Shown: positions 1,755 through 32,238 of the stretch, in pieces | Layout: each line of letters opens with the position of its first letter | Numbering within the stretch: the first letter of the stretch is position 1 | Assembly: GCA_031262545.1 (NCBI GenBank) | Contig: JAISHP010000080.1 | Coordinates: 1-34,279 of the forward strand | Direction: 5' to 3' | Source: Candidatus Ancillula hodotermitis | GTDB lineage: Bacteria > Actinomycetota > Actinomycetes > Actinomycetales > Bifidobacteriaceae | Length of the DNA: 34,279 nucleotides | The notes under the pieces: model-generated | The model's input: the letters and a program-made list of their open reading frames with translations, nothing else | Told to the model about the DNA's origin: nothing | The model's database searches: none | Made by a program: the position numbers and the translations under genes

Positions 1755-2948
1755 GTGATAGAAAGAGAAGATTTAATTGCCCCGATCCGTCCGTTTTATA
1801 AAGTGATGGATATGGTGAAAATTATAACTGGATTACGCAGATCTGGGAAATCTGTTTTAATGGATCAAGTAGCTGAAGAAATAAGAAAAACTACTATAAA
1901 TGTTAACATAATTAAGATGAATTTTGAATTGTTTGAATTCGCTAAAATTAGAACCGCTGAACAATTAAATGAATATATTATGGCAAATATTACTAAAGAT
2001 AAAGAAAATTATGTATTTTTTGATGAGATACAAAACGTTAAAGAATTCGAATTAGTTGTTAATTCGCTGAGAGCTAGAGGTAATGTAAGTGTATTTATAA
2101 CTGGCAGTAATGCTCATCTGCTCTCAAGTGATTTGGCAACAAATTTAGCTGGTAGATATGTTGAATTTAGAATTACACCATTAACTTTTAAAGAGTCTTT
2201 AGAGCTCTCAAACTTCAAAACAACAGAGCAAGCTTTTCAGGATTATCTAAAATGGGGTGGTCTTCCTGGGCGTTTTATTTATAATGAAGAGGAAGAAATA
2301 GAACGTTATTTACAAAGCGTTTATGATTCAGTTGTTTTAAGAGATATTGTTTATCGTTCAAAATTACGCGACTTGGATTTATTAGATGATATAATTCAGT
2401 TTATGCTTGACAATATCGGGCATATTTTTTCTGGTAATAAAATCATCAACTATATAAAATCAAACTCTAGAAAAATTTCACCTGAGACTCTTTATAATTA
2501 TATAAAGGTTATCGTCAATTCATTAGTGATGCAAAAGGTTAATCGTTATGATATTCGTGGTAAAAATGTATTTTCAACACTTGAAAAATATTATATTGCT
2601 GATTTAGGATTATTACAACTAAAACATAGCAAAATCGAAGAAAATCTAACAGGAAGACTAGAAAATTTAGTCGCTAATCAATTGACTGCAAAAGGGTGGA
2701 ATATTAACGTTGGTGTTTTACCAAAAGCTGAGGTTGATTTTGTCGCTGAAAAAAGCGGCGAGAGGCGATACGTTCAAGTAGCATATGTTTTAGATTCTCA
2801 AAAAGCCGTTGACAGAGAATTTGGAGCTTTCAAGGCAATTGATGATAACTATCCTAAATATGTTATTACAACCGATAAAATTAAGCAAAGTCAAAGTGGT
2901 ATAAAGCATTTAAATATTATTGACTGGCTGCTTAGTGATAAATTCTAG
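1755..2948 (+). CDS. AAA ATPase / DUF4143-family protein
   Basis: GLRRSGKSVLM (Walker A), YVFFDEIQNV (Walker B), FITGSNAHLLSSDLATNLAGRYVEF, C-terminal nuclease-like EVDFVAEKSGERRYVQVA; GTG start 6 nt after TATAAT. Confidence 0.88.
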   Translation: MIEREDLIAPIRPFYKVMDMVKIITGLRRSGKSVLMDQVAEEIRKTTINVNIIKMNFELFEFAKIRTAEQLNEYIMANITKDKENYVFFDEIQNVKEFELVVNSLRARGNVSVFITGSNAHLLSSDLATNLAGRYVEFRITPLTFKESLELSNFKTTEQAFQDYLKWGGLPGRFIYNEEEEIERYLQSVYDSVVLRDIVYRSKLRDLDLLDDIIQFMLDNIGHIFSGNKIINYIKSNSRKISPETLYNYIKVIVNSLVMQKVNRYDIRGKNVFSTLEKYYIADLGLLQLKHSKIEENLTGRLENLVANQLTAKGWNINVGVLPKAEVDFVAEKSGERRYVQVAYVLDSQKAVDREFGAFKAIDDNYPKYVITTDKIKQSQSGIKHLNIIDWLLSDKF

Positions 2949-17458: not shown

Positions 17459-17490
17459 TGCAAATCAGGGAATTGATTCCCTAATTTGCA
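17459..17490. promoter_or_regulatory. 32-nt palindrome overlapping the -35 region of a DUF4143 gene
   Basis: TGCAAATCAGGGAA-TTGA-TTCCCTAATTTGCA, one arm mismatch; TATAAT at 17501..17506 downstream. Confidence 0.75.
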
Positions 17491-17512
17491 GATATTTTGT
17501 TATAATATTTTT

Positions 17513-18664
17513 ATGATTAAAAGAGAAATTGAAGCAACCTTATTAAAAACTGCGAAAAGTTTTCCTGTTGTATTTTTGACTGGACCAAGGCAATCTGGAA
17601 AATCGACATTGCTTAAGTACTCTTTTCCTGACTATACCTATGTAAACCTTGAAGATCCTGATCGTCTACTTTTAGCTAAAGAAGACCCAAGGGGGTTTTT
17701 GTCTTCTTTGGGAGAGAAGTCTATCATTGACGAGGCGCAATTGTATCCAGAGCTATTTTCCTATATCCAAGGAATAGTTGATAAAGTAAATAAACCCGGA
17801 ATGTTTATTTTGTCTGGTTCCCAAAATTTTCTTCTTTTTGAAAAGATTACCCAAAGTCTAGCAGGAAGAGTAGGAATTCTTGAATTATTACCTTTTTCAA
17901 ATTATGAACTAGTAAACTCTAAAATTTCATTTAGCAATATTGATGATTGGCTTTTTAATGGGAGTTATCCAAGACTATATGACATGAAAATTGATCCAGA
18001 TCTATACTTTGCAAATTACATTAGAACTTATATTGAACGAGATGTCAGACAAATTAAGAACATTACAAGTCTAGAAAAATTTATTCGATTCATGAAACTA
18101 CTTGCCGCTAGAGTTGGACAACAGTTAAATATTTCTAACTTATCAAATGAAGCAGATATAGATTCGAAAACTGTTCGAGATTGGCTATCAATTCTTGAAG
18201 CTAGCTACATTATCAAAATTCTCTATCCCTACCATCCGAATTTTAATAAACGCTATACAAAAAGCCCTAAAATTTATTTTTATGATTCTGGAATAGTTTG
18301 TTCACTTCTCGAAATTGAAAGTGCTAAATCTTTAAATCTAAGCCCTATTAGAGGGCATCTTTTTGAGTCGCAAATAATCAGTGAATACATAAAACGCCGA
18401 TATGCCAAAGGCAAAACCGCTAACGTTTATTTTTATCGGGAATCTGAAATTGATGAAATAGACTTAATTTACTCTGATCAAGGCAAAATACATCTTTGCG
18501 AGATAAAAAGTTCTCAAACAGCTAAATCTAATTTTGCAAAAACTGTCAACAAATTATCGGATCGAATCAATAAAGACGCCAAAAAATTAGTTATATATTC
18601 AGGGCAAGAAGAAATGCATATAAATAATGTTACCTACAAACCTTGGAGTAAGTTCTTAATGTGA
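17513..18664 (+). CDS. AAA ATPase / DUF4143-family protein
   Basis: LTGPRQSGKSTLLK, KSIIDEAQLYPELF, LSGSQNFLLFEKITQSLAGRVGILELLPFSNYEL, YIRTYIERDVRQI, FYRESEIDEIDLIYSDQGKIHLCEIKSS. ATG 17513 lies 6 nt after TATAAT, so the 17486 start is unlikely. Confidence 0.93.
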   Translation: MIKREIEATLLKTAKSFPVVFLTGPRQSGKSTLLKYSFPDYTYVNLEDPDRLLLAKEDPRGFLSSLGEKSIIDEAQLYPELFSYIQGIVDKVNKPGMFILSGSQNFLLFEKITQSLAGRVGILELLPFSNYELVNSKISFSNIDDWLFNGSYPRLYDMKIDPDLYFANYIRTYIERDVRQIKNITSLEKFIRFMKLLAARVGQQLNISNLSNEADIDSKTVRDWLSILEASYIIKILYPYHPNFNKRYTKSPKIYFYDSGIVCSLLEIESAKSLNLSPIRGHLFESQIISEYIKRRYAKGKTANVYFYRESEIDEIDLIYSDQGKIHLCEIKSSQTAKSNFAKTVNKLSDRINKDAKKLVIYSGQEEMHINNVTYKPWSKFLM

Positions 18665-22897: not shown

Positions 22898-23241
22898 TGA
22901 CCTGTATTCAATTTCATAACGTTTTGATTAAGTAGCTGCCTATTTCTTGGAAAATAGTTTATGTCTTCTAACACGCGTATGATTCGCTTCGCTCGTTATT
23001 AAGCTTGTTAGTGAAAATTAAATTTTATTTATATGAATCGCTAAAGCTCTTATAAAATCAAATTTTCTATTACGAAGACACAAATATTTTTAAGAAATAC
23101 AGCTATTCAATAAATTGCAAAATGTCATTCTGAAGTTGATCTAGTGCAGGATGACAGGGTGCTAAGTTCAGGAAGACATACGGTAAGATCCTATTTATTG
23201 TATTATATAAATAAAATAAAAACAAATAAAAAGGAGTGCTT

Positions 23242-24381
23242 GTGATTAATCCATTTACACCGTCTTTCGGGGATTTACCGCCTGAGCTGATCGGTCGAAA
23301 AGGAGTTCTTCGAGATATTACTGAGGCATTATTAGGTCCAATTACAGATCCATTCCGTGCTGTTTTATTTACAGGAGCGCGAGGAACCGGTAAAACTGTT
23401 ATGTTGGGCGAAATTTCGGATATTGGTTTAAAAAATGGATATATTGTTGTTAATGTAACAGCAGGAAAAAATTTAGCGCTTGATATTTTGAATCAATTAT
23501 CTGAGCGCTCTAATCATTTACTTGACAAAAAATCTCGTAAAGTATCTGGTATGAACATCGGTAAATTTGGGATAACTTATGTTGATGAAAAACAGGAAGA
23601 ATTGGGATTTAGAACTCGCTTAGAACGTTTAGTTGAAGCAATTAATGAAAAAGGCAGTGGCGTATTAATAACGGTTGATGAAGTCTATAAATATGCCCCA
23701 GGGCTAGAAGAACTTTCAACAGCATTTCAACATTTTAAGCAAGAAAAAAGAAACGTAGCTTTGATGTTAGCAGGTCTTCCTAAAAATATTTCTGACATTT
23801 TGGAAGAAGATGAAAATATTCGAAACTTAACTTTTTTGAGAAGAGCAATCAGAGAAACATTAGGGAATGTAGATATAGATCAAATTGAAAAGGGATATGA
23901 TGATATTATCACTCCTATTACAGGAAAGGTTGATAAATCAATATATGGATAGATAGCAAAAGCAACATTTGGCTATCCGTTTATGATTCAGTTAGTTGGA
24001 TATTACACATTGAGAGATTTTAATCGTAATAACGATAGTGGAATTTTGAGAATAGATAATGTTTCTAACGGTATAAATGAAGCAAAGAGGCAATTAGGCA
24101 ATTTGGTTTATTCTGCTTCGGTTAATGAGCTATCTCAAAGGGATAAAGATGTTTTGGTTGCAATTGCTAGTTTTGACTCAAAAGAAGTTGCAATTTCTGA
24201 TTTGAAAGAAAAGTTACAAGTTACTGGACAGTATCTACAACAATATAAAACTCGGCTTGTTGAAGACGGATTAATAGAAAGTACGAGACATGGATTGATT
24301 AAGATTTCGATTCCATATCTCAAGGAATATATTCTGGAAAATAATAAACGTTTAGACAAAATAGAGGAGTTTCAAGTATAA
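23242..24381 (+). pseudogene. AAA ATPase with C-terminal winged-helix region, interrupted by an in-frame TAG (23950..23952)
   Basis: ORFs 23236..23952 and 23983..24381 are in the same frame; SIYG*IAKATFGYPFMIQLVGYYTLRDF reads continuously. FTGARGTGKTVML, VLITVDEVYKY, LAGLPKNI. AAGGAG RBS 5 nt before GTG 23242. Confidence 0.75.
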
Positions 24382-24499: not shown

Positions 24500-24647
24500 A
24501 ATTTAACGTGATAATCAGCCTTTATTTACTGGAGATATTGTTATTGCTGGTTGTTTTGAGCATTATGAGGAAATATGATATTTTGAAACTTGTAATATGT
24601 AGACTTTTAGTTTATAATATAATGAAATAAAAATAGAAAGGAAAATC

Positions 24648-25139
24648 ATGTCAAAATATAATTTCTTAGTTCCAACCCTCACAGAAGAGCAAACAGATGT
24701 TGCAGTTGAGCAATTGCAAATCGCTCTTGATGTGTTAAATGATTTAGCTCTTACGCTAAAACATGCGCACTGGAATGTTACAGGTCCTAATTTTATTGCT
24801 GTTCATGAAATGCTTGATCCTCAAATCGATGAGGTTAGAGGCGCCGTTGATACAATTGCAGAAAGAATAGCAACATTAGGAGGAGATCCTTGTGGTCTTT
24901 GTTGTGCAGTTTGCTGTGATGGTTGTCGTGATGTTTTGCCAGAATACCCTGTAAAAGGACGGGCAGCTACTGAAGTTCATTTGAAAGCGTTAGATGAACA
25001 ATATGTTGCTGTTTGTAAATTTATGCGCGAAGCAATTGCTAAGCTGGATGAAGCAGATGTAATTTCTTCTAATGTATTACAAGATGCATTACAAGGATTA
25101 GAGCAATTCCAATGGTTTGTTAGAAGTCATTTAATTTAA
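24648..25139 (+). CDS. dps: Dps/ferritin-like DNA-protection protein with Cys-rich insertion
   Basis: LNDLALTLKHAHWNVTGPNFIAVHEMLDPQIDEVRGAVDTIAERIATLGG is Dps-like (H-HWN, D/E ferroxidase ligands); then DPCGLCCAVCCDGCRD. Confidence 0.92.
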   Translation: MSKYNFLVPTLTEEQTDVAVEQLQIALDVLNDLALTLKHAHWNVTGPNFIAVHEMLDPQIDEVRGAVDTIAERIATLGGDPCGLCCAVCCDGCRDVLPEYPVKGRAATEVHLKALDEQYVAVCKFMREAIAKLDEADVISSNVLQDALQGLEQFQWFVRSHLI

Positions 25140-31209: not shown

Positions 31210-32238
31210 ATGAGCGAGAATATTCATCATCTTTTATCTATTGCAGATTTGTCACCAGAACAAATTTTAAAAATTATGAATACAGCTCAGAAAATCAAAA
31301 AAGAACAAACTGGTGTAGATGTTGAAGTTCCAACTTCTGGACAAATTTTTGCAGGTAAACATATATTAATTGTTGGTGACATTTCGCACTCACGAGTAGC
31401 TATGTCTAATTTGCAATTAATTACTAAACTAGGAGGAAGGGTGACATTTGTCGCCCCACCAACGCTCTTAGCAACAAATATGAGTTTATTGCCTGAGGTT
31501 AAAATTGAGTATGATTTTGATAAAGCTATTTCTCGAGCAGATTTTGATGGAATTATGTTACTCAGAATTCAAGCGGAAAGAATGCTGGGAGGGAAAATGG
31601 GGCCAACTGGGTCTAAAGATGCAGGATATTTTCCCGATTTAGCAGACTATGTAAGTAATTATGGTTTAACTAATGAGAGAGTTGCTAGAATAGATCCTAT
31701 GGTTCCAATTTTACATCCAGCACCGATAAATCGTGGGTTAGAAATTAGTTCTGAAATTGCAGATTCCCCAAGATCATTAATCAATCATCAGATTGCTAAT
31801 GGGGTTTGGACAAGAATGGCATGCCTATCTTTGCTTGTTCCTGGAATTACAAATTCTAAAAAAACAGTTGTTAATCTTTTTTATGAAAATTCAACGAGAA
31901 CTCGCTTTAGTTTTGAAGCAGCAGAGAAAAAATTGGGAATGAATATAATGAATTTTTCGGCTTCAGGTTCTTCTGTTGCTAAAGGGGAAGGTCTAAAAGA
32001 CACAGTTTCTACTCTTTATGCAATGGGCATAGATGCTATTGTGATCCGACATCAACATTCTGGTGTTGCCTTTAGGTTAGCGAATTCAAATTGGATTGAT
32101 GTTCCTGTCTTAAATGCTGGAGATGGAACACATGGGCATCCAACTCAAGCACTTTTGGATGCTATGACATTAAGAGAGTATTTTTCGGGATTTTCTAGGT
32201 TGCACAATACAGCTGATCGTTTTGGAAAGCAAATTTAG
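31210..32238 (+). CDS. pyrB: Aspartate carbamoyltransferase with permuted (swapped) domain order
   Basis: Helix-1 region [21 protein letters not shown], then Asp-binding domain [19 protein letters not shown]...[10 protein letters not shown]...[12 protein letters not shown], then carbamoyl-phosphate domain [21 protein letters not shown]...[14 protein letters not shown]...VIRHQHSG...[22 protein letters not shown]; canonical ATCases have the last two blocks in the opposite order. Confidence 0.93.

Follow-up and report, generated by a model that had tools for sequence, protein, structure and literature searches.

Dps mini-ferritins detoxify H2O2 and iron at ferroxidase centres located between two-fold-related subunits. 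In a metagenome-assembled genome of Candidatus Ancillula hodotermitis, a gene for such a protein encodes six cysteines within 12 residues, and this raises the question of what a dense cluster of thiols might do on a mini-ferritin, or whether it does anything at all. The gene lies in a stretch of 34,279 nucleotides (assembly GCA_031262545.1, contig JAISHP010000080.1, forward strand), hereafter called the window; the features of the locus are collected in Table 1. Our answer is a tentative one, to which we assign a probability of roughly 0.4: the thiols are predicted to bind a soft metal, Cu(I) most likely and Zn(II) as an alternative, at the two-fold axes of the Dps cage.

Identity of the protein and its genomic setting

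A first inspection of the window from its sequence alone (the sequence-only reading) had called the protein Dps-like, and our searches bear this out. The product matches Pfam Ferritin (1.1e-19), its best match in the PDB is Mycobacterium smegmatis Dps (E 4.6e-38), and its AlphaFold2 model, built from 39 homologues with a mean pLDDT of 93.5, retrieves 1vel (M. smegmatis Dps) at rank 1 in Foldseek with a TM of about 0.9. With the NCBIfam Dps equivalog model it scores 106.9 bits, slightly below the cut-off of 114. The Pfam match, the model and Foldseek all support the four-helix bundle of ferritins, complete with the short BC helix, and the inter-subunit ferroxidase ligands (two His, Asp, Asp and Glu) are all invariant among the 39 aligned sequences. 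M. smegmatis Dps1 (1vel, 1uvh) and Streptomyces coelicolor DpsA (4cya, 4cy9) share the fold of the window protein (TM about 0.9), with 44-46 % of residues identical when the folds are aligned, as well as its ferroxidase ligands and the position of its BC helix, whereas the BC segment of M. smegmatis Dps, SPKGTPGAIIKDRTWD, is shorter and free of Cys and its C-terminus is longer. A Lys/Arg-rich DNA-binding tail was found at neither end: the N-terminus, MSKYNFLVPTLTEEQ, has one Lys, and the C-terminus stops at HLI without an extension. Such tails are present in many Dps members and are not required of all; as the tail does not define the family, membership stands, and DNA binding mediated by a tail is not expected. 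Judged by its sequence, the ORF encodes a genuine Dps with an intact ferroxidase centre.

The gene is flanked by tRNA-Met upstream and trpA downstream, hence no metal-resistance gene adjoins it, and its neighbours differ in every relative examined. Also upstream, on the same strand, lies an AAA ATPase ORF (23236-23952) with a short ORF close behind it (23983-24381) that weakly matches a MarR-type helix-turn-helix; a stop or a frameshift may have divided what was a single ATPase gene. The assembly comprises 1,518,742 bases with a GC content of 34.5 % (sampled over 91 kb), and the published A. hodotermitis genome has 34.5 % GC and 1.51 Mbp, in a genus described as undergoing genome erosion (PMC11707648). 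Of its congeners, genome G001 has 1.8 Mb and 38 % GC, and G002 1.1 Mb and 50 % GC; neighbouring genera include the termite-gut metagenome-assembled genomes Ncb351_bin81 (Opitulatrix cubana) and Nm470_bin85 (Servula neotermitis).

Table 1. Features of the dps locus, in window coordinates.
Feature	Position	Strand	Basis or remark
dps gene, 163 aa	24648..25139	+	ATG start, TAA stop; ribosome-binding-like sequence GAAAGGA immediately 5'
Sigma-70-like promoter match TTGTAA-17-TATAAT, 5' of dps	24590..24618	+	consensus match only, not above shuffles
Ferroxidase-centre ligands H41, H53, D57, D68, E72	24768..24863	+	invariant in 39 Dps; roles assigned from homologous E. coli and M. smegmatis Dps
CxxCCxxCCxxC (C82, C85, C86, C89, C90, C93) in BC helix	24891..24926	+	sequence and statistics; not in relatives
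Region of the BC helix (helices 85-90 and 93-96 in the model), longer by one residue than in congeners	24900..24935	+	AlphaFold2 model; Cys-free relative with one helix 85-95
Seventh cysteine C123, helix C	25014..25016	+	nearly always Ile in relatives

The cysteine cluster and a predicted metal site on the BC helix

Bases 24885-24935 encode residues 80-96, DPCGLCCAVCCDGCRDV, with Cys codons starting at 24891, 24900, 24903, 24912, 24915 and 24924. Both the exact pattern first noticed, with its six positions, and its place following helix B were thus correctly read. Cysteine makes up 0.72 % of residues in the 25 other ORFs of the window, in none of which more than two occur per 12 residues; at this background, the binomial probability of at least six in 12 residues is 1.2e-10. 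In the 38 other Dps of our alignment, Cys content is 0.10 %. If the segment is helical, all six cysteines fall within a 140-degree arc, and only 0.3 % of random six-in-12 placements are equally one-sided. The pattern holds four CXXXC pairs (C82-C86, C85-C89, C86-C90, C89-C93) and three CXXC pairs. Outside the cluster the protein has one Cys only, C123, which the first inspection did not mention.

The cluster had been described as an insertion. What stands of this is a single extra residue compared with the congeners; there is no long insertion, and the segment stands in place of the canonical BC helix of Dps. In the AlphaFold2 model, C85 to C90 lie in a helix (85-90) and C93 in a short continuation (93-96), both modelled at lower confidence (block means 84 and 79), while the same region of a Cys-free relative from Opitulatrix cubana is modelled as one unbroken helix, 85-95 (block means 95 and 92). 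As the region is helical in this relative and only one residue has been added here, we regard the segment as a rewritten BC helix and not as an inserted module. The break near D91-G92 in the model is probably due to the extra residue; since the model helix is kinked at 91-92, the cysteine stripe may be discontinuous.

The proposed location of the thiols on the shell agrees with the model and with the literature. The BC helix is exposed on the outside of the Dps cage (PMC3179174), and in Nostoc NpDps4 two subunits place their BC helices antiparallel to each other, in contact via Phe95, Leu98 and Ala99 (PMC6675082). These contact residues are spaced i, i+3, i+4, and the cysteines of the cluster repeat the same spacing. 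By analogy with a solved Dps, in which these helices are antiparallel across the two-fold axis, thiols from both subunits could come together at every such axis.

Metal binding, redox sensing and disulfide-controlled assembly, the functions first suggested for the cluster, are all plausible; the E. coli Dps cage still forms when the BC helix is deleted (PMC3179174), which speaks mildly against control of assembly. We favour a soft-metal thiolate site. An otherwise ordinary Dps mini-ferritin would have had its BC helix turned into a cysteine stripe; in a 12-mer, the antiparallel pair of BC helices at each two-fold axis would gather as many as 12 thiols on the outer shell, giving six such sites and up to 72 thiols per cage, and these sites would bind the metal and buffer it beside the iron-oxidising cage. 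For this reading we infer the dodecamer, the proximity of thiols across the axis, the identity of the metal and the role in vivo.

CXXC pairs occur in CopZ. In the copper storage protein Csp3, Cu(I) is bound by CXXXC pairs whose two cysteines belong to the same helix (PMC5171941). Csp3 proteins likewise have CXXXC-spaced cysteines in the helices of a four-helix-bundle protein, a comparison that extends to the way of working only: the cysteines of Csp face the core of the bundle, in a protein that forms tetramers (PMC5171941), whereas those described here sit on the BC helix outside the bundle. Our protein is hence no Csp, as its cysteines do not line a bundle core and it has no Csp family match.

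Encoded in the genome are a copper-type P-type ATPase, whose score of 491.6 exceeds the TIGR01511 cut-off of 397, and, as a distinct protein, a CopZ-like HMA protein; their ORFs adjoin each other on contig C69 (1964-3813), and from these two genes we conclude that the organism handles copper. The ATPase ORF has 505 aa and a late start compared with a typical CopA, and its first membrane helices seem to be missing. CsoR was not found in the incomplete assembly. Congener G001 has genes for HMA and CsoR-family proteins and lacks the Cys cluster, which weakens the link to copper.

A far-reaching version of the proposal is a Dps nanocage whose two-fold axes each carry a thiolate metal cluster on the surface, six in all (polynuclear Cu(I)-thiolate or Fe-S), so that the mineralisation of iron would be coupled with the buffering of copper or with electron transfer, the second metal function having evolved on the BC helix in one endosymbiont lineage; we regard it as improbable. 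Should the cluster bind metal, a mini-ferritin would here have naturally acquired a second metal site, at a contact of the cage that assembly does not require, and would offer a small and testable system for asking whether Dps iron can be coupled to thiols or copper.

Distribution of the cluster and alternative explanations

The sequence-only reading had named absence from close relatives as grounds for refutation, and such an absence is what we observe: the cluster is missing from congeners G001 and G002, from the damaged copy of a third congener, G003, and from about 75 distinct Dps loops of Bifidobacteriaceae and other actinobacteria (nearly all actinobacterial). Dps of Ancillula, Opitulatrix and Servula, all termite-associated Bifidobacteriaceae, are 57-70 % identical to the window protein and have the same longer BC loop, but, unlike it, carry loops such as PNGLSTQTQKSASQLLPEY without Cys. 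A lone Cys at position 82 recurs in Dps of Pseudonocardia and Nocardioides. Identity to the nearest congener amounts to 65/79 (82 %) before the segment, 3/16 (19 %) within residues 80-95 and 45/68 (66 %) after it. Searches for CxxCCxxCCxxC DNA patterns in 189 genomes of the family and for the Cys pattern in 398 genomes of the phylum gave many unrelated DNA matches, part of which were checked; with the HWN-spaced CxxC across 396 genomes of the order, this gene alone carried it in frame among the Dps matches listed and checked. None of four distant Dps on viral contigs has the cluster (0/4), a pattern scan of viral contigs gave no in-frame Dps with it among the loci retrieved from the matches listed, and plasmid-borne Dps were all below 60 % identity. 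We found no published description of a Cys-rich Dps BC helix in the open-access literature. On these comparisons, the cluster is a lineage-specific variant of a well-known protein family, seen once, in one metagenome-assembled genome. As no relative shares it, the relatives offer no evolutionary test of function.

Occurrence in one genome only also fits an explanation without any selected function, in which drift in an eroding endosymbiont genome altered a dispensable surface helix by Ser to Cys steps from an NGLSSSV-like ancestor, or in which a local assembly or sequencing error created the cluster. We consider this unlikely, though a serious competitor. The genus undergoes genome erosion (PMC11707648), no other part of the aligned protein varies as much as the BC loop, the dps copy of G003 is itself damaged, and C85 and C86 align by DNA with Ser codons of G001, from which Cys is a short step. 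Against this stand the composition, by which six Cys in 12 residues at exact spacing have a probability of about 1e-10, the open and conserved remainder of the gene, and the six new Cys codons that a base-calling error would need to produce with the frame kept. If drift is responsible after all, the gene illustrates how little constrained the BC helix is in endosymbionts. The G003 copy (contig C147, 9860-10350) lies close to the end of its contig, with its coding sequence scattered over different frames, and represents either a pseudogene or poor sequence.

With regard to the origin of the segment, two candidates were rejected. For a frameshift, the other two reading frames are unlike the loops of relatives; the DNA alignment has a net change of +3, with a compensated local shift as a weakly supported possibility. 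For a tandem repeat, the three 12-base units agree at 3/6 non-Cys positions and TRF reports no array there. A genome search with a 38-residue segment returned this gene only, with no second copy elsewhere.

Less probable than drift or error appears a thiol redox switch, in which peroxide or disulfide stress would oxidise the clustered cysteines and thereby lock two-fold dimers or cross-link cages, so that the function of Dps or its clustering is adjusted. Such a switch would be well served by vicinal and CXXC cysteines where subunits are known to touch, in a protein that acts in peroxide stress, and thioferritin-type Dps-like proteins offer a precedent with a disulfide-capable Cys pair (PMC7465337). 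Their representative SsDPSL is a 12-mer of the ferritin family, as our protein is predicted to be, and has functional-looking cysteines, but these form one pair (C101, C126) elsewhere in the fold (PMC7465337), as opposed to six in the BC helix here. Six cysteines exceed what a switch needs, the cluster is not conserved, and assembly in E. coli does without the BC helix (PMC3179174). Least likely of all is a cluster of the Fe-S or Fe-thiolate type spanning the two-fold axis, which, in the manner of the haem of bacterioferritin, would supply the core with electrons so that iron is released: the cysteines within and between subunits would suffice for Cys4 sites near the ferroxidase centre, but in their spacing we recognise no known Fe-S motif, the segment has no Pfam or PDB match, and no Bfd-type ferredoxin was found in the genus.

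Other genes in the window

An aspartate carbamoyltransferase (PyrB-like; 31210-32238, forward strand) has a rearranged domain order: the start of the carbamoyl-phosphate domain is followed by the Asp-binding domain (residues 49-208) and then by the rest of the carbamoyl-phosphate domain (216-323). The same order is found in congeners G001 and G003, whose copies are 66-68 % identical over residues 5-342, and is thus unlikely to be an assembly error. From these sequences, we regard the protein as a natural domain-transposed enzyme, of which a limited literature search returned no published description. Two forward-strand ORFs (43-1095 and 17486-18664) were confirmed as AAA_14 plus DUF4143 ATPases. 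A third (1755-2948, forward strand) is similar to them by eye and another such ORF lies on contig C69, possibly members of a family that has expanded in a reduced genome.
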